Virus record (IMG/VR): IMGVR_UViG_3300020411_002411
Coordinates: 1-32,144 of that record
Reading direction: 5' to 3' (one strand)
Source: a virus
Length of the DNA stretch: 32,144 bases
In this document: positions 3,098 to 19,830 of the stretch, in pieces
How the letters are laid out: every line of letters begins with the position of its first letter
Position numbering within the stretch: the stretch's first letter is position 1
Notes under the pieces: model-generated
The model's database searches: none
Seen by the model: the letters and a program-made list of their open reading frames with translations, nothing else
What the model was told of the DNA's origin: nothing
Position numbers and translations under genes: made by a program

Positions 3098-3643
3098 TTA
3101 TTTTTTTCTTGTGTCGTTATTTGGTCGCTTTCCGCCATCGCCATTCCAACCGCCTTGTTCAAGAAAAGAACGCCAATCTCCATCGAGTGTTCGACTCTCA
3201 CGAGACTCAATGTTCATCTCTTCATCAAGTCCACCAACTTTGTAGTGTTTTTTTGCTTGAACCCAAGTTCTAACGCGGGATGTGTTTTGAACAAGCAAAT
3301 CTATCTCGCCTTCCTCAGTTAATGTTACAGAATCACCAGTAATCTTTTTGTACTCTTTCTTAAGCCATCCAGCAATATCAGTAAGGCGCTGATCCATCTC
3401 TTCTTCAAAGCCGCCGTCATACACTTCTTTTAACTGAATTTCAGATTGATAACTGAGGCACATAATATTGCCATAAAATTTGACGTTAAACCCGTCCATT
3501 ACTCTTTGGTCAATAAGTGCGTTTCCTTCTTCTCGGCGAAGAATACCGGGCTTATCAGGCTCATAATCTTCACCCAAAGCTCCGTCGTAAGCATTTGCTG
3601 CTGCTTGGGCTAGCCCTTGCACGATTTCATAAACTGTTGCCAT
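3098..3643 (-). CDS. Conserved-type phage protein of unknown function upstream of terminase
   Basis: This is a 181-residue soluble protein beginning MATVYEIVQGLAQAAANAYD. It has a central acidic helical part (QRLTDIAGWLKKEYKKIT), a segment VQNTSRVRTWVQAKKHYKVGG, and a basic, Asn/Gly/Lys-rich tail ending RPNNDTRKK. No catalytic motif, signal peptide or membrane helix is visible. Its ATG overlaps the preceding stop as TAATG, so it is translationally coupled to the 219-aa gene. Its position directly before the large terminase and its size are compatible with a small terminase subunit (T4 gp16 is about 164 aa), but it shows no clear helix-turn-helix and I do not claim that. I have an impression that this family recurs in uncultured marine phages, but I cannot name it. 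Confidence 0.8.
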   Translation of the reverse strand: MATVYEIVQGLAQAAANAYDGALGEDYEPDKPGILRREEGNALIDQRVMDGFNVKFYGNIMCLSYQSEIQLKEVYDGGFEEEMDQRLTDIAGWLKKEYKKITGDSVTLTEEGEIDLLVQNTSRVRTWVQAKKHYKVGGLDEEMNIESRESRTLDGDWRSFLEQGGWNGDGGKRPNNDTRKK

Positions 3644-4302
3644 TACTGGTCTCCTCGCATTTTCTTATACTCTAAATAGTGTTTAACTGAAGAAAGGTAA
3701 TCGGAAGCTTTGGTAATCTTTGCTTGAACCCACCCATCTAATTGTTCATCATCCATGATCATTTCTTCTAATTCTGCTGCATATTTGGCTGTTCGGTAAA
3801 GTTGTCCCTTGGCCATTCTTCCCTCAGAGTCGCTATCAGAATGCATATCTACTGCAACTGCTGGTTGTTGAACTACAGGTTCTCCACAGCCTTCAGATAC
3901 CGGGGATGCTGCTGCTTTTTCGTCTTCAGTTGGGTGGCGCGGTCCATCGCCGGGACCACCTAAGCCGCCGCCGGCTGGGCGTTCTTGCTTGGGAACAATT
4001 CGTTTTTGAATAACCCCTAAAATTGTTTGTAGTGTAGTGCGATGTTTCTGAAGTTCAACGCCGGGGAGTGCAGCCAAGTTTAAAAGAAACTGGTCGATTT
4101 TGTGGATAAGATCGCGTTCGTTATTATCAACTTCTCCGCTTACATCAGCGCGCTGTTCTTTTCCGCCAGTTGTAAACTGACCGCCTGTCATCATGCCCGT
4201 GCTAAGTTTGGTCGCGTCTTTTGAAGTAGGGTTTACAGACTTATCCTGTTCTGTTAAAATTTCTTTGATAGCTTCTTTGAGTTTTGCTTTGCTAATTTTC
4301 AT
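3643..4302 (-). CDS. Tagged protein (MKISKAKL tag), unknown function
   Basis: The 219-residue protein starts MKISKAKLKEAIKEILTEQD, one of four type-1 N-terminal tags in this window. A longer reading from 4377 exists, but 4302 is preferred: it is preceded by GGAGA at 4307-4311, overlaps the upstream stop by 11 bp, and places the tag at the N-terminus as in its relatives. After the tag comes a polar linker and then a helical block (IHKIDQFLLNLAALPGVELQ). A Pro/Gly-rich low-complexity stretch (AGGGLGGPGDGPRHP) and an acidic linker follow. The C-terminal part contains LDGWVQAKITKASDYLSSVK and looks like a small helical module. The phrase LPGVELQ-x-H also occurs in the tagged protein at 12496-13347, which suggests a shared domain. 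The function is unknown; the tag suggests capsid cargo (see findings). Confidence 0.82.
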   Translation of the reverse strand: MKISKAKLKEAIKEILTEQDKSVNPTSKDATKLSTGMMTGGQFTTGGKEQRADVSGEVDNNERDLIHKIDQFLLNLAALPGVELQKHRTTLQTILGVIQKRIVPKQERPAGGGLGGPGDGPRHPTEDEKAAASPVSEGCGEPVVQQPAVAVDMHSDSDSEGRMAKGQLYRTAKYAAELEEMIMDDEQLDGWVQAKITKASDYLSSVKHYLEYKKMRGDQ

Positions 4303-4675
4303 TTGGTCTCCATCCTTTTTCCCAGCGCTCTTCCCGATCTTCAACAAAGTTAACGTAGCATTTACTGCAACAATCAAACTTTACAAAACAAACATCGTCT
4401 AGAGCTTTCTGTGCACTTGCGCCACAAACGGAGCAATATCTTACAGACTCTCTACTAAGTAGTTTTTTTGATACTTTAATCCCATTAATGTCTACTTTCT
4501 CTTGCCACTCATCATTTTTGGTGTGCTTTTTGTAATGCTCTCGCATTTGTTTAAGATACTCTTTCTCTTTTTCAGGATCCCAATTTGCTCGGGGATTTTG
4601 GATGGCCTCAGTGCCATACTTTTCTGAAATTGCTTTCTCGATGCTGGCGATTCTATCTGGATTTTTACTGCTCAT
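4292..4675 (-). CDS. Zinc-ribbon protein of unknown function
   Basis: The protein has 127 residues when started at MSSKNPDRIASIEKAI. That ATG overlaps the previous stop by 11 bp; a longer in-frame start at 4708 would add 11 residues of unlikely sequence. The N-terminal half is charged and helical (GTEAIQNPRANWDPEKEKEY), followed by a Lys-rich linker. The C-terminal half has two Cys pairs, YCSVCG and CCSKCY, about 20 residues apart, which fit a four-cysteine zinc ribbon. It ends EERWEKGWRPNEN. A ribbon of this type could bind nucleic acid or a protein partner; nothing here indicates catalysis. The gene sits between the membrane/lysis-like cluster and the terminase, and the start of the next gene is nested in its last codons. 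Confidence 0.82.
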   Translation of the reverse strand: MSSKNPDRIASIEKAISEKYGTEAIQNPRANWDPEKEKEYLKQMREHYKKHTKNDEWQEKVDINGIKVSKKLLSRESVRYCSVCGASAQKALDDVCFVKFDCCSKCYVNFVEDREERWEKGWRPNEN

Positions 4676-5081
4676 TGAATAACCTATAGGCTGCGTATGT
4701 GGATACAATGCCGATTGCTATGCCGCCTGCAACCCACAACGCTCGATTTTGAGGGGATTGATTAAGCAGCGATTCTCTTAGTTGTGCAATTTCCAAATCT
4801 TTCTCCGTAATGCGCAAATCGTATTCTTCCTGTAGCGATTCTAATCGAATGTTTAGATTCGATAGTTCTAAGTCAAATTCGGCGCTTTGTCGCTGTAATT
4901 CATAGTTTAACGTAGCTTCACAATTTAGTTTAACACGTTCTTCTAATATTAGCAACTCTGCTGTTGCTTCTTTGTTAAATAACACACCTTCAAACGGTGC
5001 GCACTCATTTTCACCAAGAATGGTAAATTGTGGCTCGTCTGCATGGGCGATTCCCAATAAGAGCAGTAAACTAAGGAACAT
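4665..5081 (-). CDS. Secreted coiled-coil protein with C-terminal membrane helix, spanin-like partner candidate
   Basis: The 138-residue product begins MFLSLLLLLGIAHADEPQF, a good signal peptide with a likely signal peptidase I site after AHA. A long acidic coiled coil follows (about residues 40-100, LEERVKLNCEATLNYELQRQ onward). A single C-terminal transmembrane helix (ALWVAGGIAIGIVSTYAAY) ends in a short RLFNEQ tail. The start is the ATG at 5081, with AGGA at 5089-5092 seven bases upstream; the TTG two codons earlier lies too close to the AGGA. It overlaps the Rz-like gene by 11 bp. There is no lipobox, so it is not a classical Rz1 lipoprotein. A periplasmic coiled coil anchored at its C-terminus could pair with the Rz-like product. 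The position supports a lysis role, but this is inference. Confidence 0.8.
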   Translation of the reverse strand: MFLSLLLLLGIAHADEPQFTILGENECAPFEGVLFNKEATAELLILEERVKLNCEATLNYELQRQSAEFDLELSNLNIRLESLQEEYDLRITEKDLEIAQLRESLLNQSPQNRALWVAGGIAIGIVSTYAAYRLFNEQ

Positions 5082-5481
5082 ATTCAAATCCTAATATGTC
5101 TTCTATTTTGTCAGCTAATTCGTCTTTGTTTTCAGAGAACTGTTGGCGTTCGTCAATTTCTTCAATAATTCTTACGCGCTCTTCTTCAACTTCAGTTTCT
5201 ACCCGCTCTTGTTCTTCACGGTATTCTCGTTCTAAAACTTCTAATGCATCCTTGTAAGTTTGTAGCGCTTGTTCTTTTCGCCTTAATTCTTCTGCATGTA
5301 TATCTTGCAGACCTTGAATTTGGTTCTGTAAAGATTCTTCCGTGGCCTGGTATGCGTTTTCAAGCTGCTTATAATCATATCGCATCTTTGCCCATAAGCC
5401 AGTGCTTAAAACAAGAATGGCTACAAGTTTCCAATTAGCTCGTAGCCATCCAAGAAGTTTTAACCAATCAACTGAAATCAT
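5071..5481 (-). CDS. Rz-like inner-membrane spanin candidate
   Basis: This 136-residue protein has the architecture of an inner-membrane spanin: a short N-terminus (MISVDWLKLLGWLRANW), one N-terminal transmembrane helix (KLVAILVLSTGLWAKM, about residues 18-33), then an uninterrupted, highly charged coiled coil from about 35 to 125 (QNQIQGLQDIHAEELRRKEQ onward). Spanins fuse or disrupt the outer membrane at the last step of lysis of Gram-negative hosts. The identification rests on topology and neighbours: a two-helix membrane protein upstream and an exported coiled-coil protein overlapping its 3' end. Its ATG overlaps the upstream stop as ATGA. No endolysin is visible in the window, which weakens the argument that this is a complete lysis cassette. 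Confidence 0.75.
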   Translation of the reverse strand: MISVDWLKLLGWLRANWKLVAILVLSTGLWAKMRYDYKQLENAYQATEESLQNQIQGLQDIHAEELRRKEQALQTYKDALEVLEREYREEQERVETEVEEERVRIIEEIDERQQFSENKDELADKIEDILGFEYVP

Positions 5482-5675
5482 GCAACACCTTTTAATTTAG
5501 CAATTCCATCAATTACAGTTTGACCTCCGATATAAATGCCGGAGATAATAACCCAGTCTGAGGACTCTAGTCCAGCAAACACCATTAGTCCAGTAGCTGT
5601 TAACCATACCATAAACTTGCGCGAAATTATCTTTTCGACCAGTCTATCTAACTTAGCTTTTGTATAGCTCATCAT
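5478..5675 (-). CDS. Small two-helix membrane protein, holin-like
   Basis: The 65-residue product starts MMSYTKAKLDRLVEKIISRK, a basic amphipathic N-terminus, followed by two hydrophobic segments (FMVWLTATGLMVFAGL at about 21-36 and WVIISGIYIGGQTVIDGI at about 41-58). Size, topology and position next to the Rz-like gene fit a small holin, which would permeabilise the inner membrane at lysis. Many small phage membrane proteins look alike, so holin is a positional guess. GAGAGG precedes tandem ATG codons at 5675 and 5672, and either may be used. Its stop overlaps the next start as ATGA. Confidence 0.72.
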   Translation of the reverse strand: MMSYTKAKLDRLVEKIISRKFMVWLTATGLMVFAGLESSDWVIISGIYIGGQTVIDGIAKLKGVA

Positions 5676-5684
5676 AAGCGCCTC

Positions 5685-5843
5685 TCAAAGACACTGTAGC
5701 CATTGACCAAGCAGTACTGCTCCGCCGGTAACAATCCACCATGGCAAGCGCTGAACACCAGCGGCTACCTCATCTTTCACAGCAGCTGCTGTGTCTAATG
5801 CTAAATTCTTGGCACCAAGTGCCACTTTTGTTAAAAGTTCCAT
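5685..5843 (-). CDS. 52-aa small membrane protein
   Basis: This short gene reads MELLTKVALGAKNLALDTAA, then an amphipathic helix (AVKDEVAAGVQRLP), then a hydrophobic C-terminus (WWIVTGGAVLLGQWLQCL). It begins at the ATG at 5841-5843, which overlaps the stop of the 212-aa tagged gene as TAATG. It ends with TGA at 5685-5687, nine bases before the holin-like gene. The exact TAATG coupling, the coherent amphipathic/hydrophobic design and the otherwise empty 160-bp gap support a real gene. It may be a second membrane component of the lysis-like cluster; the function is unknown. Confidence 0.68.
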   Translation of the reverse strand: MELLTKVALGAKNLALDTAAAVKDEVAAGVQRLPWWIVTGGAVLLGQWLQCL

Positions 5844-6481
5844 TACTTTTCTCCTTTGGGCTCTTTCATTGGCCCTTTACACATTTCTTCTGCTTCTGCT
5901 TTTGATAAACCTTCTGGTCTTTCATCTGCAGTTGCATCTTTCATTGCGCACATATATCTTCTTTGTTTGTCTGAATAAACTTCTCTCAGTTCCTCACCTA
6001 AATCTTCAGCTACTTCTATTGCTATCTCTTTGGCTAATTTTCCATCTAAATACTCATCATAATAATTATGGGTGTCGGGTAGTTCGTCTTCGCGAACATA
6101 TACACCAAGCGCATTGAGATGTCCGATTAGTTGCCCAGTCCAATCATAAAATTTTGGATCAACTCCAGACAATCCCTCTAGTTCTTCTTGGATCATTTTC
6201 TCTAGGGTTTCTCTAACGTCTTGTTGATTTACACGCTGCTTAGGTCGATAACCTTTTCCAAGCATGGCTTGTCCGAGTCCGATAGAAGTTGGAGATTCAC
6301 CAGTAAAGGCTGCGGAAAGATAATCAATACTTACATCAAGCTCACTAATACCACTGATAAGTTCGTTAATAGATTTGAGAAGCGCTTGGCCGATCTCGTC
6401 GCTAAATGTTTCTTCACTTAACAAGAACTGGTCAGCTTCTTGTTTGATAATCTCCATCAATTTTGTTTTGGTAATTTTCAT
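5843..6481 (-). CDS. Tagged protein (MKITKTKL tag), acidic, unknown function
   Basis: This 212-residue protein starts MKITKTKLMEIIKQEADQFL, a type-1 tag followed directly by LLSEETFSDE. The body is acidic and helical (QALLKSINELISGISELDVS). It contains RVNQQDVRETLEKMIQEELE and a segment DWTGQLIGHLNALGVYVRED. The C-terminal part has a Cys pair (YMCAMKDAT and EEMCKGPMK) and ends in a Lys/Glu-rich tail PMKEPKGEK. No enzyme motif is visible. Its start overlaps the stop of the 44-aa membrane gene as ATGA. The tag is shared with the proteins starting at 13347, 6830 and 4302, but the bodies do not resemble each other, so the tag seems to be a portable address rather than part of a domain. Confidence 0.82.
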   Translation of the reverse strand: MKITKTKLMEIIKQEADQFLLSEETFSDEIGQALLKSINELISGISELDVSIDYLSAAFTGESPTSIGLGQAMLGKGYRPKQRVNQQDVRETLEKMIQEELEGLSGVDPKFYDWTGQLIGHLNALGVYVREDELPDTHNYYDEYLDGKLAKEIAIEVAEDLGEELREVYSDKQRRYMCAMKDATADERPEGLSKAEAEEMCKGPMKEPKGEK

Positions 6482-6612
6482 TGTAAGATGATTCCTGTCA
6501 ATAAAGTAATTAGAGCGCCTAATGTTGCAAGAGCAAAAAGAGCGTAAGATATATCATTCCAAGTAACTCCTCGCCAAGAAAGCCAATCGTTTAATCGACG
6601 CCACCACTTCAT
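6478..6612 (-). CDS. 44-aa single-helix membrane protein
   Basis: The product reads MKWWRRLNDWLSWRGVTWND and then ISYALFALATLGALITLLTG with IILQ at the end. This is a Trp/Arg-rich cytoplasmic head followed by one strong transmembrane helix. The ATG at 6610-6612 overlaps the upstream TAA as TAATG, and its TGA overlaps the next start as ATGA. It therefore fills the whole gap and is coupled on both sides, which is strong support for a gene this short. The positive-inside rule puts the N-terminus in the cytoplasm. A membrane anchor, holin or antiholin function are all possible and the sequence does not decide. Confidence 0.72.
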   Translation of the reverse strand: MKWWRRLNDWLSWRGVTWNDISYALFALATLGALITLLTGIILQ

Positions 6613-6830
6613 TACACATAAATCCCTAACAGATGAAGCATATCATGAAATGCATCCTCAACAGATTCAGGCAAAGTTCCGGCGTCCACAGCTTGTCCTA
6701 CAAGAGTATAGGCGTCTTGAAACCTGTCTCTATCCTCGTAAGATATATCAATTTCTGGCTCATCAAAGAGTCCTTCTTTGGCGATTTCTTCTGCGATGAT
6801 TTGTTTAAGTTTTTGTGTTGTGGTTTTCAT
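6612..6830 (-). CDS. Small tagged protein (MKTTTQKL tag), unknown function
   Basis: This 72-residue acidic protein starts MKTTTQKLKQIIAEEIAKEG. The tag carries IIAEE, the closest match in the window to the FIAE end of the T4 capsid-targeting sequence. The body is short and helical (EDRDRFQDAYTLVGQAVDAG, then VEDAFHDMLHLLGIYV). The start codon is contributed by a 27-bp direct repeat (6826-6852) that also carries a six-codon mini-ORF, MNGLAT, whose TGA overlaps this ATG. Translation may therefore be coupled to that mini-ORF. The gene ends in TAATG with the 44-aa membrane gene. The function is unknown. Confidence 0.78.
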   Translation of the reverse strand: MKTTTQKLKQIIAEEIAKEGLFDEPEIDISYEDRDRFQDAYTLVGQAVDAGTLPESVEDAFHDMLHLLGIYV

Positions 6831-6852
6831 GTCGCTAATCCATTCATACTTA
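6826..6852. repeat. 27-bp direct repeat, copy 1
   Basis: Identical to 7205-7231 (plus strand begins ttcatgtcgctaatccattc). This copy supplies the TAA stop of the 119-aa gene, a mini-ORF MNGLAT and the ATG of the 72-aa gene. A 27-bp exact match is far beyond chance for this window. Confidence 0.95.
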
Positions 6853-7209
6853 TTCGTCTCCTAACGCTTCCAGTTCATAACCAAATTCCGTACTATAGTC
6901 GGCAAGATCGCCAGTGCGATCCATTTCGCGCTCGGCGGCAGCGATTGCCTGTTCCAAGCCACTTTGAAAACTTTCAGGAGTTGTAAATCTCGCGATAACT
7001 CTATCATCATGACGATGATCTATAATGTAGACGTATGGACTATCAACTCCTTGTCCTGTCTGTATGTCTGCATAAAAAGGAAGCTGTCCTCCTTCGGGAT
7101 CCGTCAAAGTATTAAACCCGCTAACAAGGTCTTCAAAGGGATTTGGTGGGTCTATAGGTAGCGCCTCTTCTTTTAGGTACCTGTTCCAATTTTCAAATAG
7201 TTTATTCAT
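6850..7209 (-). CDS. Tagged protein (LFENWNRYLKEE tag), 119 aa, probable inserted cassette
   Basis: The start is the ATG at 7207-7209 (ATGA overlap with the tubulin-like gene). A longer reading from 7293 runs through the tubulin coding region and is rejected. The product begins MNKLFENWNRYLKEEALPID, a type-2 tag also seen at the start of the ParB-like protein. A Pro-rich linker follows, then a compact region (PFYADIQTGQGVDSPYVYII then DHRHDDRVIARFTTPESFQS) and an acidic C-terminus ending ELEALGDE. No known fold is recognised. The gene is bracketed by the two copies of a 27-bp direct repeat, 379 bp apart, which suggests it was inserted between the tubulin-like gene and the 72-aa gene. Confidence 0.8.
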   Translation of the reverse strand: MNKLFENWNRYLKEEALPIDPPNPFEDLVSGFNTLTDPEGGQLPFYADIQTGQGVDSPYVYIIDHRHDDRVIARFTTPESFQSGLEQAIAAAEREMDRTGDLADYSTEFGYELEALGDE

Positions 7210-7231
7210 GTCGCTAATCCATTCATACTTA
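7205..7231. repeat. 27-bp direct repeat, copy 2
   Basis: Identical to 6826-6852. Here it encodes the last residues of the tubulin-like protein (SMNGLAT plus stop) and the ATG of the 119-aa gene. Since it is coding in this place, this is probably the parental copy. Confidence 0.95.
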
Positions 7232-8339
7232 GTATCGCAATCAGACCGGGCACATTCTTTCTGACATAAACGCCAGAGAAAAGTGTCTCGCATCGACCGC
7301 CGACATAAGCGATTGCCGACTCAATGTTTTTGCTAACACGAGGGTCAGCTACCATTTCTTCTGAGACTACTAAAACTAATGAACCGGCTGCAGCTTTGCC
7401 CTTGGGTGGAGGACATGCAGAACGATTCATGCAGTTGTGAAGGATCACCGATCCAAGCTTTCCAGTATTTGGATCTTTTATCATGGTTGAGCCAAGAAAG
7501 GCTCTCCCGTCATTACCCAAGCAGGTTTCCAGATCTTTACTATCAAAAGATTGGATCGGTGAGTCCTCTGTGGAGAGTTTTAACACCTGGGCAAAAGATT
7601 TTGCAAATTGTGTATTGGCGACAGGATACATGCCTAACATGCCGATTCTGCCGCGAAGTAAGCGGGTGGCTCTTTCATTATCTAAAATAATATGCGGATG
7701 CTGTGTAACATCGTTTGCTAGCGTCAACGCATTGCGAGCGATTGTGGGGTTAAGATTTTCTTGTGCTGTCGGCCAAGAAACTACATAGACAATTTTGCCC
7801 GAGGATTGGACAGAGCGCATATAACGCTCAAACACAGGATGAAGAGCAGTAACGGAACTGCCTGTACCGCCACCTCCCCCAGCAAAAACAAATAACCAAT
7901 CGACTTTTCCAAGTTTGATGCGGAGAGCATCTTCAACAATTGCTCCATTTTGACTTAAAACCTCTTTTCCGTAATCTACGTTTTTGCCAATTCCATCAGA
8001 ATCGGGAATAAGGACAACGTGGTCCTCTTCGACATTTTTTGGAATGTCTTTGCCTGTTGTGTTAACAAGCAACGTTTTGTTAAAACCAAGCTCAATAAAA
8101 GCATTGGCCATTTTATTGCCTCCACCGCCGACGCCAACAAAACCAACGTTAATCGAAGACGGAGCAGTGTTCTCGGGTAAAAGATCTTCGTCAGAATATT
8201 CCATCTGAAGCCCAAAGTCTTCAACCATCCCAAAATCGGCAGCTTCTACCTCTTCGTGATAGTGGTCTTTTTCTTGTGTGAAAGAAGGTGGCGGCTCTGC
8301 GGGTGGCAGAAAATCAAACTCATTATCTTTTCCGGACAT
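7206..8339 (-). CDS. Tubulin/FtsZ-superfamily GTPase
   Basis: The 377-residue protein has a unique acidic, Pro-containing N-terminal extension of about 62 residues (NEFDFLPPAEPPPSF onward), then a tubulin/FtsZ GTPase core. The first nucleotide loop is VGFVGVGGGGNKMANAF (about 65-81), and VNTTGKDI (92-99) matches the ANTDxQAL region of FtsZ. The signature loop is AGGGGGTGSS (153-162). YVVSWPTAQEN and IILDNERATRL follow. The catalytic T7 loop is SFDSKDLETCL (264-274), which keeps both acidic residues, followed by GRAFLGSTM. An active, polymerising GTPase is therefore likely. Phage tubulins (PhuZ, TubZ) position the replicating genome or segregate plasmid prophages. There is no long charged C-terminal tail of the PhuZ type. 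AGGA precedes the ATG. It sits just downstream of a ParB-like gene. Confidence 0.9.
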   Translation of the reverse strand: MSGKDNEFDFLPPAEPPPSFTQEKDHYHEEVEAADFGMVEDFGLQMEYSDEDLLPENTAPSSINVGFVGVGGGGNKMANAFIELGFNKTLLVNTTGKDIPKNVEEDHVVLIPDSDGIGKNVDYGKEVLSQNGAIVEDALRIKLGKVDWLFVFAGGGGGTGSSVTALHPVFERYMRSVQSSGKIVYVVSWPTAQENLNPTIARNALTLANDVTQHPHIILDNERATRLLRGRIGMLGMYPVANTQFAKSFAQVLKLSTEDSPIQSFDSKDLETCLGNDGRAFLGSTMIKDPNTGKLGSVILHNCMNRSACPPPKGKAAAGSLVLVVSEEMVADPRVSKNIESAIAYVGGRCETLFSGVYVRKNVPGLIAILSMNGLAT

Positions 8340-8350
8340 ATATTATTCCT

Positions 8351-9310
8351 TTATTCTGCTGCTTTTCTATCTGTTGCGAATGGCGATCTAAAATCTATTT
8401 TACCCTTTTCAAGAGGCTTAAGTGCTGCAGGCGTATCTCCACCAGCAGTTACTTTGGAGCCGGCCGGTGCATCAGTCTGTGGCATTGGTTCTCTACTAGT
8501 TGCACCGCTTACGGGCCTGTTGTTCTGCCTCATTTGTGCAACGTTACGAGTGTAAATATAAGAAAGTGCTCTTTCTACCGCCTGCTCTTTTCCGGCTTCG
8601 CCAACACCTCGTTGATCACGCTTTTGTTGTCGACCGGTTTCAACATCTTCATTCATGCCGTCTTTTAAAAGTCCAAGCTGAATATATTGTTGTGCAAGTT
8701 CGGGTGTGACAATTTCCATAATCTTCTGATTCAAAGTTTTTTCATCAATGGTAAACAAGTTAATTCCGCCTCCCTCGTTAGAGGGAACCGAACCAGCATA
8801 TGCCTTGATTGACGCTTGAAGGAGCTTTAGGGCATTAGTTGGGCTAACTGGCAACTTAATGTTAAATGCGTACATTTGCGCATTTGGATTAACACAGAAC
8901 AAAGAAGACCATCGATGGTGTCCGTCCAAGACGTACTTACCGTTCAAAACGACAATTGCATCATTTCCAGCAGGCCCAACTTTAAATGGTCCATCTGATT
9001 TATAATATTCCATAAAAACTTTTGGCCTCGTTAGAGCAAAGGGAATTGATTTTTTAAACACAACTTCAGCCTGTGTTGGTCTTAAATCGGAACACCTTAC
9101 AGTCGTAGGCTCAATAGATACCATATCATCTTTTTGATTGCCGTCTTTTGAACCGGCTAAAATTGTTTGTATTAGTTCTTTTTTATTAGACTGCATGGCG
9201 GCTACAAACTGCGGTAGCGACATCTGCAAAAGATCAGATGATGATACACCTCCTGCGGCTTCTTCTTGCTCGTTTAAAAATTTGTTCCATCTTTCCATTA
9301 ATAGTTTCAT
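8351..9310 (-). CDS. ParB/sulfiredoxin-fold protein with N-terminal tag
   Basis: This 319-residue protein begins MKLLMERWNKFLNEQEEAAG, a type-2 tag. The core (about 80-170) has the ParB/sulfiredoxin-like arrangement: TVRCSDLRPTQAEV, FMEYYKSDGPF, then NGKYVLDGHHRWSSLFCVNP. The latter matches the family's D-G-x-H-R motif, which in relatives binds or hydrolyses nucleotide or acts in ParB-like nucleases. The C-terminal third is low-complexity (GVGEAGKEQAVERAL, then Pro/Gly/Thr-rich) and ends KIDFRSPFATDRKAAE. Its ATG overlaps the stop of the Mre11-Rad50 gene as TAATG, and the tubulin-like gene follows 11 bp later. It could be a DNA-binding partner of the tubulin homologue, a nuclease or a packaged effector; the sequence does not choose. 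Confidence 0.8.
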   Translation of the reverse strand: MKLLMERWNKFLNEQEEAAGGVSSSDLLQMSLPQFVAAMQSNKKELIQTILAGSKDGNQKDDMVSIEPTTVRCSDLRPTQAEVVFKKSIPFALTRPKVFMEYYKSDGPFKVGPAGNDAIVVLNGKYVLDGHHRWSSLFCVNPNAQMYAFNIKLPVSPTNALKLLQASIKAYAGSVPSNEGGGINLFTIDEKTLNQKIMEIVTPELAQQYIQLGLLKDGMNEDVETGRQQKRDQRGVGEAGKEQAVERALSYIYTRNVAQMRQNNRPVSGATSREPMPQTDAPAGSKVTAGGDTPAALKPLEKGKIDFRSPFATDRKAAE

Positions 9311-12300
9311 TATTGATTAACCCTTGCGTATCCGCGTTTTTTATCTATAACGATTTGCATGTCAACACAGTCCTTGAGCGAATCAAGATGAGAGATTAAC
9401 AAAACGTTCTTAAAATACACTTTAATTAGTTCCAAGATCCGAATAAAACCCTCCATATTTTCTTCGTCCAAGGCAGTGCCAGGCTCATCAAGAATAAAAA
9501 TGTCTGATTTTGGCAGTGATGAGACACTTAAAAGTGAAAGCCGAATTGCCATTGCAGCCATTGTTTTCTCTGCTCCTGACGCCATTTCAATTGGTCGCTC
9601 ATCGTACTGTGGATGTTTGATAAAGATATCAAACTTATTTCCAGAGCTTTCAAAGAAGACTTCGAAGTCAACAATATTGGCCAACACCTTTGCAATTTCT
9701 TGATTGATTACTGGAATCTTCTTTTTGATAACATCATAAGCAATGCCATTTGGATGCATACATTGCATAAACAAGTCGTAAGCTGCAAACGAACTGCGAA
9801 GGTTGTGGTGCTCTCGCTTGTTTTCTTGTAGTGTTTCTAGTCGCTGTTCGCAACTGCCAACTAGCTTGACCAACTCCAAAGTTTGTTCTTCGCAATTACT
9901 AATTTTTGTCTTCTTTTTTTGTGCTGCATTTTGTAGTTCTTTTTTCTCCGTTAAGAGCTTCTCAAGATTCTCGATTGCTTCTTTGTTTTCTTCATACTCT
10001 TCAATCTTTTCAGATATATCTCGCAACGCAAGTTCAATCTTAGACTTAACAGTCTTATTGCGTTCTCTTTCTAGTTCCAATTGAGTAGTTTCGCTTTCAA
10101 CTTTAGCAATGAGTTCAGTTGTGCGACTGTGCTCCATAAGCTGTGTAAGCACATCTGCAGGATTAAGCTCCGACAAGTCTGTTGCAATATTTTGCAACTC
10201 ATAAGCAGCTAGCTCTTTGCTTGCAACTGCTATATGTGCTTCTTTAACAAACTTGTTTTCGCAGCAGTAGTGGCAATCTGGATCATACTCATGCTCTTCT
10301 AATAGCTTTTCCTTCTTATTGATATCTGACAACTCTTCTTTAAGTGCCTTTTCTTTCTCATAAAGCTTGTCTATTTGTTTCTGCAGTTTCATAAGTTTTC
10401 CTATGTCAACTCCTTCTACTTTTTTCCTAGAACTTTTAACGACACTTTTCTTTCTGTTAAGCTCTTCAGACTGTTCCTTTATCGATTCCATAAGAGATTG
10501 AACTTTGTTGTTTTTAGACTTCTTTTCTTCGCGTAACTGTGCGATATCAATAAGCTCGTTCGGAATAGCATCAATCTGAGATTCTAATGCTGCAAGGTTG
10601 ACCTCTATCGTATCCAATTCACCCTTTAAAGTATTACAGAATGTTTTGTTATTCGATACGTCAATTCGACATTGAGCTAGTGTATCGTTTGTCTGTTCGA
10701 TTTCTTCATCGTAATTTTTGTTCTCGTGTTTCTTCAGCAAGACTTTTGCTTCGACAGAATCATCTTTGGCCATCTTAAACTTTCTTTCGAAAACTTCCAA
10801 GTCGAGAAACTTAGCGATGATTTCTTTGCGACGGGTCGAGCCTTCATCAATAAATGCAAGTGCGCCGTGCTGAGAAGCCAGGGAAGACACAGAAAAATCA
10901 TCCATAGACCCAAAGTGCTTTCTAATATTTGCATCTGTCTGATTGCGTGTCGTGCCATTAAGAGAAGTTACTTCGTCTGTGACTTGATCATACACTTCGA
11001 AGTTTAGATCTGTCTTAGCTTCTAGTGTTTCTTCGCCTTTCAGCCTCTTTACATACTTCTCGGATTTTCTCTCAATTGTATAAGTCTTGTTGTTTGACTC
11101 AATGGTAAGCTTTCCGCGACAGTCTTCTTTGTTTTGATTTATAACGTTTAGATTCTTTCGTTCGTTTTTAGATGTAGTGTTGAAAAGCGTATAAAGGACC
11201 GCATCAATAATAGAACTCTTTCCAGAAAAGTTCTTTCCGAAGATTCCAATGATTCCGCTTAACCGATCAAAATCAACAGTATTGCCTTCGCCATAATTAA
11301 ACAGATTGTCAAATTCAAAGGATTTAAGCTTCCAATTAATATTGCGCGCTATCTCCTCTTTCTCTTCAATAATTTTATTATAAGTACGATTTAACTCGTA
11401 AACTTTTTCCATCGTGTCAGCAGGCACCTGATAGTCCTTAAGGTACTCATCCATGAGTTCCTCTTGTATCTTTGGGTCTCGCAGGTTTTCTGTCTTCAAT
11501 CCGTCAGTAATGTTCTCGACATTTCCACGTTCACCGCTGGCGCGATTCAAGAACGAAATGCTTTCTGGTTGAAAACGATGCTTGGCAATGTCCATTGCTC
11601 TGCGCATTACATCGAGAGGCAGATTGTTATTGCTGACTAGTCGAAGCCTTGCGCCTGTTGGCACTTGAAGGTTTCGTGGCATTCGTCCTTTCATTGTCAA
11701 AGGAATAGTAAAGAACGGTTTAGGATTCTTAAATACAATCGGTTCAATATCCCATTCATCTTTTGACTTAATATCCCATATAAGAATACCTTTGTCGTTA
11801 GTCTCGCCATGATTCTGCTGTACAGTAGAGCCAGCATACCACACACGGCCAGCTTCATCAAGAAACTGGCGACGGTGAATATCGCCAAGCATTGCGAAAT
11901 CATGGTCGTCAAAAATTGTAATTGTATCTTCTCCGTTGACCATGGTCCAGCCAACATCAGTTTTACAGTTGCTAATAGAGCCGTGATAAAGTGCAATGTT
12001 GATCTTGTTTGGATCTGTAGGCTTTGTCCAGTTTTCTCGATCAAACACTGAAAGTACATTTAGACAGAACTTGTCGTCTAGACATGTCTCGCCAGAGTCC
12101 TTTAGCAGATGAAGATGCTGCAAGTCTAGCGCATCTACAATTGGTGTAAGTGCGTCTTGCCTGCTGCTATTCTTTAGATTGCCGTCGTGATTACCTAAAA
12201 TGATATACGTAGGCGCAATCGTCGCTAAGTTTCGGAAGAAGTCCGAACACATGTCAACAAACTCGGGTGAGATTTGTGTTTTCGTGTGTGCGATATCACC

Positions 12301-12426
12301 GCAGTGAACGATATAATCGACTTCTTTTTCTCGTAATGTTTCGTATAGTTGTTCAAAAACAACTTTGTATTCGTAATGATACTTCAAATTTTTGATATGA
12401 GTATCGCTTATATGGGCAAACTTCAA
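9310..12426 (-). CDS. Fused Mre11-Rad50 (SbcD-SbcC; T4 gp47-gp46) nuclease/ATPase
   Basis: One uninterrupted 1038-residue frame joins two proteins that are normally separate. Residues 1 to about 340 are a calcineurin-like phosphoesterase with ISDTH (6-10), CGDI (42-45), GNHDG (78-82), YHGS (147-150) and GDIH (181-184), the metal-binding set of Mre11/SbcD. A linker leads to the Rad50/SbcC ATPase. It has Walker A FGKNFSGKSS (396-405), a long coiled coil, a zinc-hook apex C718-H-Y-C721, a second coil, the ABC signature SGAEKTMAAMA (about 947) and Walker B DIFILDEP (D980, E981). The complex resects DNA ends for recombination-dependent replication and repair. The start is TTG, supported by GGAGGG at 12430-12435 and by the family's usual N-terminus. 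A consensus promoter lies just upstream. Confidence 0.96.
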   Translation of the reverse strand: MKFAHISDTHIKNLKYHYEYKVVFEQLYETLREKEVDYIVHCGDIAHTKTQISPEFVDMCSDFFRNLATIAPTYIILGNHDGNLKNSSRQDALTPIVDALDLQHLHLLKDSGETCLDDKFCLNVLSVFDRENWTKPTDPNKINIALYHGSISNCKTDVGWTMVNGEDTITIFDDHDFAMLGDIHRRQFLDEAGRVWYAGSTVQQNHGETNDKGILIWDIKSKDEWDIEPIVFKNPKPFFTIPLTMKGRMPRNLQVPTGARLRLVSNNNLPLDVMRRAMDIAKHRFQPESISFLNRASGERGNVENITDGLKTENLRDPKIQEELMDEYLKDYQVPADTMEKVYELNRTYNKIIEEKEEIARNINWKLKSFEFDNLFNYGEGNTVDFDRLSGIIGIFGKNFSGKSSIIDAVLYTLFNTTSKNERKNLNVINQNKEDCRGKLTIESNNKTYTIERKSEKYVKRLKGEETLEAKTDLNFEVYDQVTDEVTSLNGTTRNQTDANIRKHFGSMDDFSVSSLASQHGALAFIDEGSTRRKEIIAKFLDLEVFERKFKMAKDDSVEAKVLLKKHENKNYDEEIEQTNDTLAQCRIDVSNNKTFCNTLKGELDTIEVNLAALESQIDAIPNELIDIAQLREEKKSKNNKVQSLMESIKEQSEELNRKKSVVKSSRKKVEGVDIGKLMKLQKQIDKLYEKEKALKEELSDINKKEKLLEEHEYDPDCHYCCENKFVKEAHIAVASKELAAYELQNIATDLSELNPADVLTQLMEHSRTTELIAKVESETTQLELERERNKTVKSKIELALRDISEKIEEYEENKEAIENLEKLLTEKKELQNAAQKKKTKISNCEEQTLELVKLVGSCEQRLETLQENKREHHNLRSSFAAYDLFMQCMHPNGIAYDVIKKKIPVINQEIAKVLANIVDFEVFFESSGNKFDIFIKHPQYDERPIEMASGAEKTMAAMAIRLSLLSVSSLPKSDIFILDEPGTALDEENMEGFIRILELIKVYFKNVLLISHLDSLKDCVDMQIVIDKKRGYARVNQ

Positions 12427-12495: not shown

Positions 12496-13347
12496 TTACT
12501 CTAGACCGTAGCCCTTCTTGATGTTCTCGCCAGCGGCCGGCAATAACGATGCAGCCATATCAGCAAGTCTTTTCATGTCTTCGGGATCACCAGTATCTAA
12601 GCCCATAATCAAGTCAATAATTTCTTTGCGAACTGATTCAGGATGTTCTGCGATGCCTGCGCTAGCTAAAGTTTGAATTGCATCTTGTGATGGGCGTCTT
12701 CTTGCTGTTCTATAATCAGCCTCCATCATAGGAGCGTCAGCATCGGTAGCATTATGTTCTTCTAATGTTCTCAAGAACAACGCTAACAATTCTAATTGCG
12801 TACTTCCAATTCTACGAAAGTCTCCTGCGGCTGCAGCTTCGGCTGCTTCTGCTAGTTTTCTTGCAATTCGTCTTTTAATCTGTCCAACTTCTAATCCGCC
12901 ATATCCAGGCACCAATACTTCAGCGTCATCAGGCGTTGCTGAATCTTCTTGTGCGCCGGCATAAAGAGGACCTTCGTCGCCATATTCAACTTCCATCAAC
13001 TGTCGGATTTCTTCTTGGATAATGTAAACCAATTGCTCTCGGAATCCAATCTGCTGGCCAGCTGATGCAGCTTCTTCTTCCTCGCCGCGATCAAAGCCGA
13101 TCATTTGACGGCTAGTAACTTCTTCTTCCTCTTCTGGTGCGTCGTGCATTTGTAATTCTACGCCTGGAAGCTGGCGAAATACCTTTTCAAATACATCTGA
13201 TACGTCTTCAGGTGGCATGCCATCTACTAGACCAGCAATTCCTCCGACAAGATTCTCTAATGGAAGCCCACTAATTTCTTCTTCTAGAAGTTCTTTGAGT
13301 TGTTCTTCTTCTATAATTCTTCTAAGTTGTGATTTTGTAATTTTCAT
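12496..13347 (-). CDS. Tagged protein (MKITKSQL tag), very acidic, unknown function
   Basis: The protein has 283 residues when started at the ATG at 13345-13347, four bases after the upstream TAG. The longer reading from 13368 adds MAPGTSK, whose codons overlap the previous gene. It begins MKITKSQLRRIIEEEQLKEL, the clearest type-1 tag in the window, continuing as LLEEEIS. A helical segment with VFRQLPGVELQMHDAPEEEE resembles the LPGVELQ-x-H phrase of the 219-aa tagged protein. A Glu-rich linker, a second helical part (REQLVYIIQEEIRQLMEVEY) and an Ala-rich helical domain (KRRIARKLAEAAEAAAAGDF) follow. It ends AAGENIKKGYGLE. There is no enzyme motif. A packaged internal or core-like protein is a reasonable hypothesis. 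Confidence 0.82.
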   Translation of the reverse strand: MKITKSQLRRIIEEEQLKELLEEEISGLPLENLVGGIAGLVDGMPPEDVSDVFEKVFRQLPGVELQMHDAPEEEEEVTSRQMIGFDRGEEEEAASAGQQIGFREQLVYIIQEEIRQLMEVEYGDEGPLYAGAQEDSATPDDAEVLVPGYGGLEVGQIKRRIARKLAEAAEAAAAGDFRRIGSTQLELLALFLRTLEEHNATDADAPMMEADYRTARRRPSQDAIQTLASAGIAEHPESVRKEIIDLIMGLDTGDPEDMKRLADMAASLLPAAGENIKKGYGLE

Positions 13348-13351
13348 TTTG

Positions 13352-13822
13352 CTAGTTCCAGGCGCCATAGGCTCTTAAAACATTACGAGAAAAGCTTTCC
13401 TTTTTGACACCTTTGTTCATCAGAGCCCTTACGGCATTTTTTAAATCAGCTACAATTTGAATGCCCAACATGTCTACAATTCGATTAGTTTGAGAATCTT
13501 CTTTTGGACCCTTCCAATCAGCAGCTAACATTAATGCCAAAATTTGATCAGGTGGCAAGCCATGAAGATATTGAGCCGACGCCATCATAATCCCACCGGT
13601 GTAGCCAGCGCTGGAGTCGCCAGCTGAAACACGTTCAGCCGCATCGCGCATATTTTGATAAGCTGCCTCGTCGGTCGCAGTCATTCCGCCTGGGGTCAAC
13701 CCTCTGCCCACAAAAGCAGCTGCATCTCTAACCGCCCTAAAAGGACCTTCATCTAATCTCTCCATCTTCTCGTCCATAAAATAACGAGGGTCAACAAACT
13801 TTGTATTTTTTCTGCGGGCCAT
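13352..13822 (-). CDS. 156-aa protein with a third N-terminal tag type
   Basis: The protein starts MARRKNTKFVDPRYFMDEKM and continues ERLDEGPFRAVRDA. A basic head is followed by FVDPRYFMDE, which I treat as a third kind of portable N-terminal element. The rest is Ala/Gly/Met-rich and helical (GYTGGIMMASAQYLHGLPPD, then NRIVDMLGIQIVADLKNAVR) and ends LRAYGAWN. There is no catalytic motif, membrane helix or Cys cluster. It lies between the primase and the MKITKSQL gene, nine bases after the primase stop, with an AGGAGA ribosome binding site before its ATG. The function is unknown. Confidence 0.8.
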   Translation of the reverse strand: MARRKNTKFVDPRYFMDEKMERLDEGPFRAVRDAAAFVGRGLTPGGMTATDEAAYQNMRDAAERVSAGDSSAGYTGGIMMASAQYLHGLPPDQILALMLAADWKGPKEDSQTNRIVDMLGIQIVADLKNAVRALMNKGVKKESFSRNVLRAYGAWN

Positions 13823-17720: not shown

Positions 17721-18710
17721 TTATCCACTTACATACCGAACTAATCTAAGGGGCACCTGTAAGCTGGCCCCAGAAGAGTGTCCTACAATATACACTATGG
17801 TGTCGAGACGATCAATAGTCAAGCCGGCTAGCGTGTCGTTTATTTTTCCATGTGTAGACCACAGAGGGCTTCGCGAAGCAGAAGAACGTGCACGTAATCC
17901 AGGAACGACTCCAAAATTAATTTTTGTAATTGTTCCGCGAGGTCCGGCTATGGCAGACAGTGTAGTATCGGCCTTGGTCGATGTTGCATAATAATATACA
18001 GTGTTTGCAACTGAGCCAACACTAAAAGATGCGTAATTTGCCATACCAGAAACATTGGAGCCGGCTTGTACATTCTGTAACGAACTAAAAGTTGTTGTAG
18101 AGCTATTGTACGTATTAGTGAATTTACCGCCTCGTGGTCCAAAAACATTTGAAATAAACCTTGTGTCCACTTCAACGCGATACCGATTATCCATCATATT
18201 TTGACTAGTAAGCAAGCTTCTGTTTGCAGCGTTTGCTATCAATGAAGTGGTATCAAGTCCAGACTCAATGCACAGCATCCGACCCGTAGTAGACATAGAC
18301 TCAACGCAAGAATCTTTGCCAATAGCAGTATTAAGCTTTTCTTTTGTTTGTTCATTCACTGCTACTAAAAGCACTCCATTATGTAGGAAAACAGTTTCAG
18401 TGCTAATTTTAGTATTCTGTTTAAGAACTGGCATGTATAGCAAATTATTGTTTGTGTTTGTAACTAATTTAAATCTCAATTCAGCTGTATCGGAAGTGCA
18501 GCCTTGCAGGATTGGTGTCTGTAATATTTCTAAGTCGTAATACGCAGAACCACTAACGTTGTTTTTGTCGTACAGTGCATAATTTATTTCATCATCACCC
18601 ATCGCATATTTAACAATTTTAAAATTTCCTTGTGATAGTTTTTTTCTACCAATCTTTGTTAGTACTGCGTCGAGTATGATATCGCCCGAGTTATCTAAAA
18701 AGGTGCTCAT
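17721..18710 (-). CDS. Putative virion structural protein, 329 aa, tandem paralogue A
   Basis: The N-terminus is MSTFLDNSGDIILDAVLTKI followed by GRKKLSQGNFKIVKYAMGDD and EINYALYD. This module is shared almost residue for residue with the 347-aa protein upstream (FLDNAGTIQLDAVLTELGRK). The middle repeats FGPRGGKF and AGPRGTITKINFG, and the end is DTIVYIVGHSSGASLQVPLR then LVRYVSG. The conserved ends and the two G-P-R-G blocks suggest a defined fold with variable inserts, as in oligomeric tail or neck components. GAGAGG lies eight bases before the ATG. The role is unknown. I have seen this N-terminal signature recur in uncultured phage sequences but cannot tie it to a named protein. Confidence 0.83.
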   Translation of the reverse strand: MSTFLDNSGDIILDAVLTKIGRKKLSQGNFKIVKYAMGDDEINYALYDKNNVSGSAYYDLEILQTPILQGCTSDTAELRFKLVTNTNNNLLYMPVLKQNTKISTETVFLHNGVLLVAVNEQTKEKLNTAIGKDSCVESMSTTGRMLCIESGLDTTSLIANAANRSLLTSQNMMDNRYRVEVDTRFISNVFGPRGGKFTNTYNSSTTTFSSLQNVQAGSNVSGMANYASFSVGSVANTVYYYATSTKADTTLSAIAGPRGTITKINFGVVPGLRARSSASRSPLWSTHGKINDTLAGLTIDRLDTIVYIVGHSSGASLQVPLRLVRYVSG

Positions 18711-18786: not shown

Positions 18787-19830
18787 TTACGTGCCAGCAT
18801 ATCGAATGATCCTTAGTGGAATTTGAATTCGCGATGAAGAAGATAACCCCTCAACATAAATCGTAGTATCAATATAATCATATTTGTTTGTGCTGTCAAA
18901 TAAAGTTTGATCAGTGTAGCCAAAAATGTTATATTTCTCGCTTCTAGGCGACGAAGAAAAGTGAGTCATTTCCGGTTTAAGGGAAAAGTTAAGCGCTAAT
19001 ACACTACCACGTGGTCCATTTAAAGAAGAAAGCTTATTATCGTCTATTGTTCCATCTCTATAGAGTATGTTATTTAATGCGCCCCGTACTGAATAACAGT
19101 TAAATTTGTCCACTATGTGTCGTAAGCTGTTTGGTGGTGTTTCAGCCATTGGTGAAAAATCTATTTCTACTTCTGAAACAGCGATTTTTGATTTAAATGT
19201 AGATCTGGGTCCGGGTCCGTAGACTTTAGTAAAAAACCTGCTATCGCAGAATACATTAAAATAGAGATCCAACAATCCAGGATCGATGATATAAGATTTT
19301 CTATACTCTGCAGTTCTTCCTATAGTAGAAAGAAGCGAACTGCTAGAGCCGCTAAGCCCGGATTCAATTATTATCTTTGTTTTCATTGTTTGTAAATTTT
19401 CAAGTATATAGTCTTCTCTTCCGAGCGCTGTTTTAAGTTTTTTAGTTGTTTCATCATTTACAGAAAAGTAATAACGATCTTCCCACGGTTTATGTGCAAC
19501 GTTAACTTTGTCATTAATACGCAAGATAGGTATAAAGAATATATCATCTCTATTGAATGTTGTTAAGCCGTATTTTATAGCAGTCGTTTCACCAGAAAAA
19601 GCTTCAAAGCAAGATTGGGACAAAATTGAATTTTGCAATTCGTCACCAGAGCCAATGCTGCCGCTAGAAGTAACTACTTCTTTTGCAGGATCAAACAACG
19701 TATAATCTATCTCATCATCACCTAACGCAAATTTAGCGACATGAAATTTTCCCTGAGCTAAACGCTTGCGGCCAAGTTCAGTTAAAACTGCGTCAAGTTG
19801 GATAGTTCCCGCATTATCTAAAAAGGACAT
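18787..19830 (-). CDS. Putative virion structural protein, 347 aa, tandem paralogue B
   Basis: The protein starts MSFLDNAGTIQLDAVLTELG and continues RKRLAQGKFHVAKFALGDDE and IDYTLFD, the same N-terminal module as the 329-aa protein downstream. Later it has VYGPGPRSTF and LNGPRGSVLALNFSLKPEM in the positions of the paralogue's G-P-R-G blocks. It ends DTTIYVEGLSSSSRIQIPLR then IIRYAGT. The two copies share motif order but are well diverged, so the duplication is old. GAGAG precedes the ATG at a normal distance. A virion role is inferred from neighbours and composition. Confidence 0.83.
   Translation of the reverse strand: MSFLDNAGTIQLDAVLTELGRKRLAQGKFHVAKFALGDDEIDYTLFDPAKEVVTSSGSIGSGDELQNSILSQSCFEAFSGETTAIKYGLTTFNRDDIFFIPILRINDKVNVAHKPWEDRYYFSVNDETTKKLKTALGREDYILENLQTMKTKIIIESGLSGSSSSLLSTIGRTAEYRKSYIIDPGLLDLYFNVFCDSRFFTKVYGPGPRSTFKSKIAVSEVEIDFSPMAETPPNSLRHIVDKFNCYSVRGALNNILYRDGTIDDNKLSSLNGPRGSVLALNFSLKPEMTHFSSSPRSEKYNIFGYTDQTLFDSTNKYDYIDTTIYVEGLSSSSRIQIPLRIIRYAGT

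Follow-up and report, generated by a model that had tools for sequence, protein, structure and literature searches.

A 27-bp repeat marks one joint of a hypervariable gene array behind a tubulin-like gene in uncultured T4-like marine phages

Internal-protein (IP) loci of the T4 type are flanked by early-promoter/inverted-repeat sequences. The internal proteins of T4 are diverse, and the CTS alone is conserved among them (PMC3012670). Targeting of IPIII needs no more than its first 10 residues, and gp21 cuts after L/I-x-E (PMC9026906). Ip1, Ip2 and Ip3 act against type IV restriction, each of them blocking a different enzyme of this type (PMC12373910), and the IP loci are polymorphic (Repoila et al. 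1994, as cited in PMC3012670 and PMC12373910). Modular shuffling mediated by PeSLs, elements made up of an early promoter and a stem-loop, is also on record for T4-type phages (Arbiol 2010; Comeau 2014, as described in PMC4503421). In this study, a 27-bp direct repeat in a 32-kb IMG/VR virus record (the whole stretch analysed, hereafter the window) was followed into related contigs. The repeat proved to be one of the joints in a hypervariable array that lies after a tubulin-like gene, and not a one-off footprint.

The 27-mer TAAGTATGAATGGATTAGCGACATGAA occurs on the minus strand of the window as two exact copies, at 6826-6852 and 7205-7231, with a spacing of 379 bp. No third copy was found in the window at up to 3 mismatches, and 100 dinucleotide shuffles of the sequence gave 0 matches to the repeat. 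The tubulin-like gene and the array, flanking and leader-bearing genes of the window described below are all on the minus strand. Copy 1 (7205-7231) spans the last codons of the tubulin-like gene with the TGA, and the overlapping ATGA start of a 119-aa gene (6850-7209). In copy 2 (6826-6852), the 119-aa gene ends with its TAA, and a mini-ORF ATGAATGGATTAGCGACATGA (MNGLAT*; minus strand, 6827-6847) and the overlapping ATGA start of a 72-aa gene (6612-6830) follow. When the repeat is collapsed, 379 bp, i.e. exactly the 119-aa gene, are lost, and the tubulin-like gene is left in ATGA overlap with the 72-aa gene. The earlier note on this DNA had described the identical copies, the reading frames at each of them and the outcome of the collapse in these terms, and the sequence bears out all three.

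The tubulin/FtsZ-like gene (377 aa; 7206-8339) matched Pfam Tubulin (8e-9) and FtsZ in PDB (2.5e-10). At least 159 relatives of it were found in IMG/VR, on uncultured phage contigs, the best 80 of which were 88-96% identical to it, and another relative is in one contig binned as Flavobacteriaceae; none was found in 50,697 phage records. The terminase of the window was nearest to that of Flavobacterium phage immuto (48%). The genomes that host the array are a clade of uncultured T4-like marine phages. In a 195-kb relative, a bS21-like ribosomal protein gene was also observed within the head gene cluster (L129:13391-13633).

Past the tubulin stop, the sequence was different in each contig compared. 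The order kept in the relatives that reach far enough was the tubulin-like gene, variable DNA, four genes of 65, 136, 140 and 181 aa, and the terminase. The tubulin-like gene is the fixed upstream flank of the array and the source of its linker, and in the array comparison the conserved holin-like 65-aa gene (5478-5675) is the fixed downstream flank that delimits it; adjoining the latter is a conserved pair of 136-aa and 140-aa genes (4665-5481), termed spanin-like from sequence features alone. The array comparison set comprised 86 non-redundant intervals between the tubulin-like and 65-aa genes, which ranged from 15 bp to 6,331 bp; L060, with 16 bp, is an empty site, and L084 reaches 6.3 kb. 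They hold 294 genes in 184 families, 136 of which are singletons, and the first slot alone is occupied by 66 families across 82 arrays. Gene number, order and identity are polymorphic among close relatives, and one family occupies different slots with different neighbours among the arrays. In the window, the 119-aa and 72-aa genes are followed by a 44-aa gene with an overlapping start (MKWWRRLNDWLSW; 6478-6612), also present in L054, L056-L058, L064 and L068, a 212-aa gene with a B-like leader (MKITKTKLMEIIKQE; 5843-6481) and a 52-aa gene (5685-5843), which array comparison places last before the fixed flank. A 14-bp exact direct repeat, TGATATATCTTACG, is shared by the 44-aa gene (6543-6556) and the 72-aa gene (6737-6750), and may be due to chance.

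The relatives also indicate that the 119-aa gene is a cassette, as the earlier note had proposed. In L110, a homologue of the 72-aa gene (50% identity) directly follows the tubulin-like gene and the 119-aa gene is missing, which is the arrangement that the note had suggested looking for. In L103, the tubulin-like gene is followed by a 119-aa homologue (48% identity) and then by an unrelated gene with leader C (leaders A to C are described below). In L111, a longer protein with leader A has the body of the 72-aa protein as its C-terminal portion.

Outside the window, 21 IMG/VR stretches contain the exact 27-mer, and related contigs have many near-identical copies of it between their genes. A search that allowed up to 3 mismatches in 22 nt identified 76 copies at tubulin ends and 58 distinct internal copies, the latter in at least 34 contigs. 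To the left of the internal copies, the homology with the tubulin-like gene continues for 0 to 28 bp, mostly 0-7 bp (16 bp in L097 and 28 bp in L012); since its length varies, the left edge of the linker is not fixed. The earlier note had read the repeat as the trace of a single, precise insertion. One recent event that brought in the 119-aa gene and duplicated 27 bp, unconnected with any wider system, would account for the exact identity of the two copies and the clean collapse. However, the 58 internal linkers stand beside many different genes, their junctions are ragged, leaders are shared among the genes, and the 27-mer recurs in 21 other stretches, so that this explanation is improbable.

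The lack of drift between the two copies had been taken as a sign of a recent event, a view that the other copies do not uphold. Over 18 sites, the mean pairwise differences were 1.28 among internal copies and 1.47 among tubulin ends, and the internal copies are therefore about as uniform as the tubulin ends. A random internal copy was identical to the tubulin end of another genome in 16% of cases. Identity to the tubulin end of its own genome was observed in 15 of 54 cases against 8.7 expected (P = 0.028), and the within-genome match at single polymorphic sites gave P = 0.001 at one site and P = 0.30 at another; these P values are approximate, as some near-duplicate contigs are included in the counts. 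The within-genome excess would itself be somewhat in favour of a single insertion, but given that it is modest and that identity also occurs across genomes, copy identity says little about age. These results suggest that the internal linkers are a mix of copies of local origin and copies imported with cassettes.

In the tubulin frame, the linker bases read C-TAA-GT, and in 32 of the 58 internal copies the longest upstream frame stops at this out-of-frame TAA. On the right side, an ATGA start comes next in 24 of the 58, and in 33 the linker is followed by a Shine-Dalgarno-like site with an ATG further on. The suggestion in the earlier note that the mini-ORF would preserve coupling fits the copies with an ATGA overlap, but coupling is not general, since the gene after each of the 33 has a Shine-Dalgarno-like site of its own. 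A related explanation is that selection keeps the linker as a translation-coupling or re-initiation element and that its spread does not come from recombination at the linker. The stops and ATGA overlaps that it supplies, together with the uniformity of internal copies relative to coding ones, speak for such a role, which is also compatible with the explanation that we favour (see below). As an account in its own right it is unlikely, because of the 33 copies just mentioned and because the ends of homology between arrays are enriched in linkers and leaders.

This enrichment was seen in the pairwise comparison of arrays. The ends of conserved DNA fell in linkers or leaders in 16 of 52 cases on the left and 18 of 57 on the right, as compared to 4.7 and 5.2 expected, and 0 of 500 shuffles reached the observed counts. 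Linkers and leaders make up 9% of the array, and thus the breakpoints lie in them ca. three times as often as by chance. About two thirds of the breakpoints are elsewhere; therefore, linkers and leaders are preferred but not exclusive sites of exchange. A RecA-family protein is encoded in six of six long relatives, and the window encodes an SbcD-SbcC fusion (9310-12426), a gp47/gp46-like protein of 1038 aa in which SbcD- and SbcC-like domains are joined.

Two further explanations concern the junctions themselves. Mobility of each cassette by an integron- or transposon-like site-specific mechanism would fit a row of promoterless small genes that share a short joint. Against it, no inverted repeats were found at the borders of the repeat in the window, 12 linker regions folded weakly, the edges of junctions vary, and the product of the 119-aa gene matched no family in protein family searches; such a mechanism is highly improbable. 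The two linkers of the window had no promoter- or terminator-like site in a scan that covered sigma-70-type promoters only, and Rfam and tRNA scans of the window gave no matches. The other explanation is an assembly artefact, which the earlier note had itself raised and which is conceivable in so far as short repeats can misjoin. It is very unlikely, because the same architecture, with different cassettes, was found in many separate assemblies, in dozens of contigs from different metagenomes.

Three types of N-terminal leader were found on unrelated bodies: A (M-x-x-LFENWRKHLxE), B (MKITKxQLKQIIKEE) and C (MARRKNxKRIDPRYFLxE). The leaders were defined without the E, so that the count of [LIM]xE is independent of the leader definition. 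This motif directly follows the leader anchor in 29 of 34 independent bodies for A, 131 of 133 for B and 23 of 23 for C (183 of 190 in all), as compared to 0-26% in windows further into the bodies. The E is residue 14 in leaders A and B and residue 18 in leader C, in which M often replaces L/I ahead of x-E, and identity drops past it. In the window, the 119-aa gene carries leader A (MNKLFENWNRYLKE; residues 1-14, 7168-7209) with L-K-E at 12-14 ahead of an orphan body, and the 72-aa gene carries leader B (MKTTTQKLKQIIAE; residues 1-14, 6789-6830) with I-A-E at 12-14. Leader analysis also placed leader A on a 319-aa gene upstream of the tubulin-like gene (MKLLMERWNKFLNE; 8351-9310), leader B on a 283-aa gene (MKITKSQLRRIIEEE; 12496-13347) and leader C on a 156-aa gene (MARRKNTKFVDPRYFMDE; 13352-13822), and a gene at 3643-4302 would have a B-like leader (MKISKAKLKEAIKE) if its start is the internal ATG. 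Many array genes, e.g. the 23 members of family 0, carry no leader. A further leader-like start, MNLWNxI.., was not counted as a fourth leader, since the genes carrying it have a homologous body.

Eight clusters, including a large chained one, contain related bodies that carry different leaders. Clear pairs are L040 (A) and L032 (B), with 83% identity over 259 aa, L030 (B) and L053 (C), with 88% over 73 aa, L035 (A) and L089 (C), with 61% over 189 aa, and L046 and L064. Conservation at third codon positions was about 0.5-1.0 in the leaders vs 0.3-0.45 in the bodies, as would be expected if leader DNA has spread by recombination or has a recent common origin. Leader A was found without the linker in 43 places with no tubulin gene in the fetched stretch, and it may be distributed more widely than the tubulin locus. 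A form of it (MKLLFENWRKYLxE) was seen in L191, L158, L198, L200 and others, again with neither linker nor tubulin gene in the fetched stretch, and a 195-kb relative has a second leader-A gene site far from the tubulin locus (L092 record 92110-95928, G002). In tblastn searches of the 50,697 phage records, which are weak for queries of 22-28 aa, leaders B and C had no match and leader A had only a chance-level hit (E = 10).

As to the bodies, 149 leader-bearing proteins had almost no match in Pfam, PHROGs and PADLOC, and the isolated single hits were not used to assign function. An AlphaFold2 model of the 119-aa protein from a two-sequence alignment (mean pLDDT 86) predicts an alpha-beta-beta-beta-alpha-alpha body, with the leader as a separate helix (residues 3-14) ahead of this well-predicted domain. 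Fold searches with the model against PDB and BFVD gave no significant match. The 319-aa leader-A protein contains a ParB-like DGHHRW motif (phrog_2859, E = 4e-6), and a nuclease- or CTPase-like cargo is possible. Elsewhere in the window, two 132-bp stretches (18572-18703 and 19695-19826) are 70% identical and lie at the starts of 329-aa and 347-aa genes, which look like genes for related tail proteins.

An S77 (gp21-like) prohead protease was encoded in eight of eight long relatives, above the Pfam cut-off, and in 0 of 14 control genomes. Genes adjoining the protease gene carry A- or B-like N-termini (MKTLIENWNKFVVNE, MSEMKVIIERWDRYINE, SFHDSWKNYLVE and METTKQRIKEILKEE), a conserved MKKSELKKVIKPLVKE gene also lies beside it, and in a capsid-protein-like product the conserved part is preceded by L-R-E. 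From these sequence features, the leaders are most likely capsid-targeting propeptides. It could be argued that the array does shuffle and that its leaders mark another destination, e.g. the tubulin filament or the membrane, or serve mainly as recombination handles, in line with the conserved third positions of leader DNA and with the position of the locus next to the tubulin-like gene. We regard this as rather unlikely. The three unrelated leaders all end at [LIM]xE, A- and B-like leaders are found on the genes next to the prohead protease, and leader A occurs in many contigs without a tubulin gene in the fetched stretch.

Taken together, the locus is probably T4 internal-protein-like, with cassettes that shuffle by short homology and products that are probably packaged and injected into bacteria. 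A typical cassette is a small gene in which one of the leaders A, B and C precedes an unrelated body. The linker corresponds to the final 22-27 bp of the tubulin-like gene, which would have been turned into a portable element; in a frame other than that of tubulin, it supplies a stop for the preceding cassette and a mini-ORF, and in many cases the next cassette also takes its ATGA start from it. The linkers and the near-identical leader DNA would serve as short homologies for the exchange, gain and loss of cassettes or bodies, with recombination probably carried out by the RecA-type and SbcCD/gp46-47-type functions of the phage itself. The leader would then take the protein into the prohead core, the S77 protease would cut after the E of [L/I/M]-x-E, and the mature bodies would be packaged and then injected to aid host takeover or to counter defence systems, the anti-defence role being suggested only by analogy with T4. 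We judge it an even question whether the tubulin coding 3' end has become a portable joint for stops and starts and, along with three or more interchangeable leaders for prohead targeting, forms a modular cargo system, whose packaged and injected bodies make up a very large and fast-changing delivered set.

The array suggests that an uncultured, abundant marine phage group keeps a far larger and actively shuffled set of proteins like the T4 internal proteins, with 184 gene families in 86 arrays and almost none belonging to a known family. The repeat would thus point to a pool of unknown proteins whose delivery into bacteria by this ocean phage group is probable, and the leaders offer a simple sequence rule for listing candidate injected proteins in metagenomes for screening against defence systems. 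The results also suggest that a conserved gene can give rise, from its coding 3' end, to a mobile stop/start joint; modularity gained in this way would differ from that based on the promoter/stem-loop elements described in T4-type phages.

Among known systems, integron gene cassettes likewise form a variable row of small promoterless genes with a common short joint, but the locus has no attC-type inverted-repeat site, and its junctions are not at a fixed base. A transposon with target-site duplication would have terminal inverted repeats and a transposase, whereas no inverted repeats were found at the borders here and the 119-aa product is without a family match. As in PeSL-mediated shuffling, a short repeated intergenic element flanks accessory genes and provides homology for their exchange; however, neither the early promoter nor the stem-loop described for PeSLs was found at the linkers of the window (sigma-70-type scan), and the element here is a translational stop/start derived from coding sequence. 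The S-PM2 'ORFanage' of T4-like cyanophages is also a marine T4-like locus of orphan genes whose order is rarely conserved, but it is not known to have a shared leader or linker, and the authors of PMC4503421 left the mechanism open.

The closest parallel is with the T4 IP loci, which also hold small unrelated genes that vary among close relatives and share one short N-terminal leader ending at the L/I-x-E prohead-protease motif, with an S77 protease encoded. In contrast to these loci, three exchangeable leader types are present here, a conserved tubulin-like gene provides the joint through its 3' end, read in another frame, and the bodies are mostly acidic and unrelated to known IPs. In place of early-promoter/inverted-repeat flanks, the linker regions (12 folded) fold weakly, with no promoter-like site at those of the window in a sigma-70-type scan. 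As far as its genes indicate, the locus works like a T4 internal-protein locus in its variability, leader, protease motif and encoded protease, and is set apart by its three leaders and its tubulin-derived joint.
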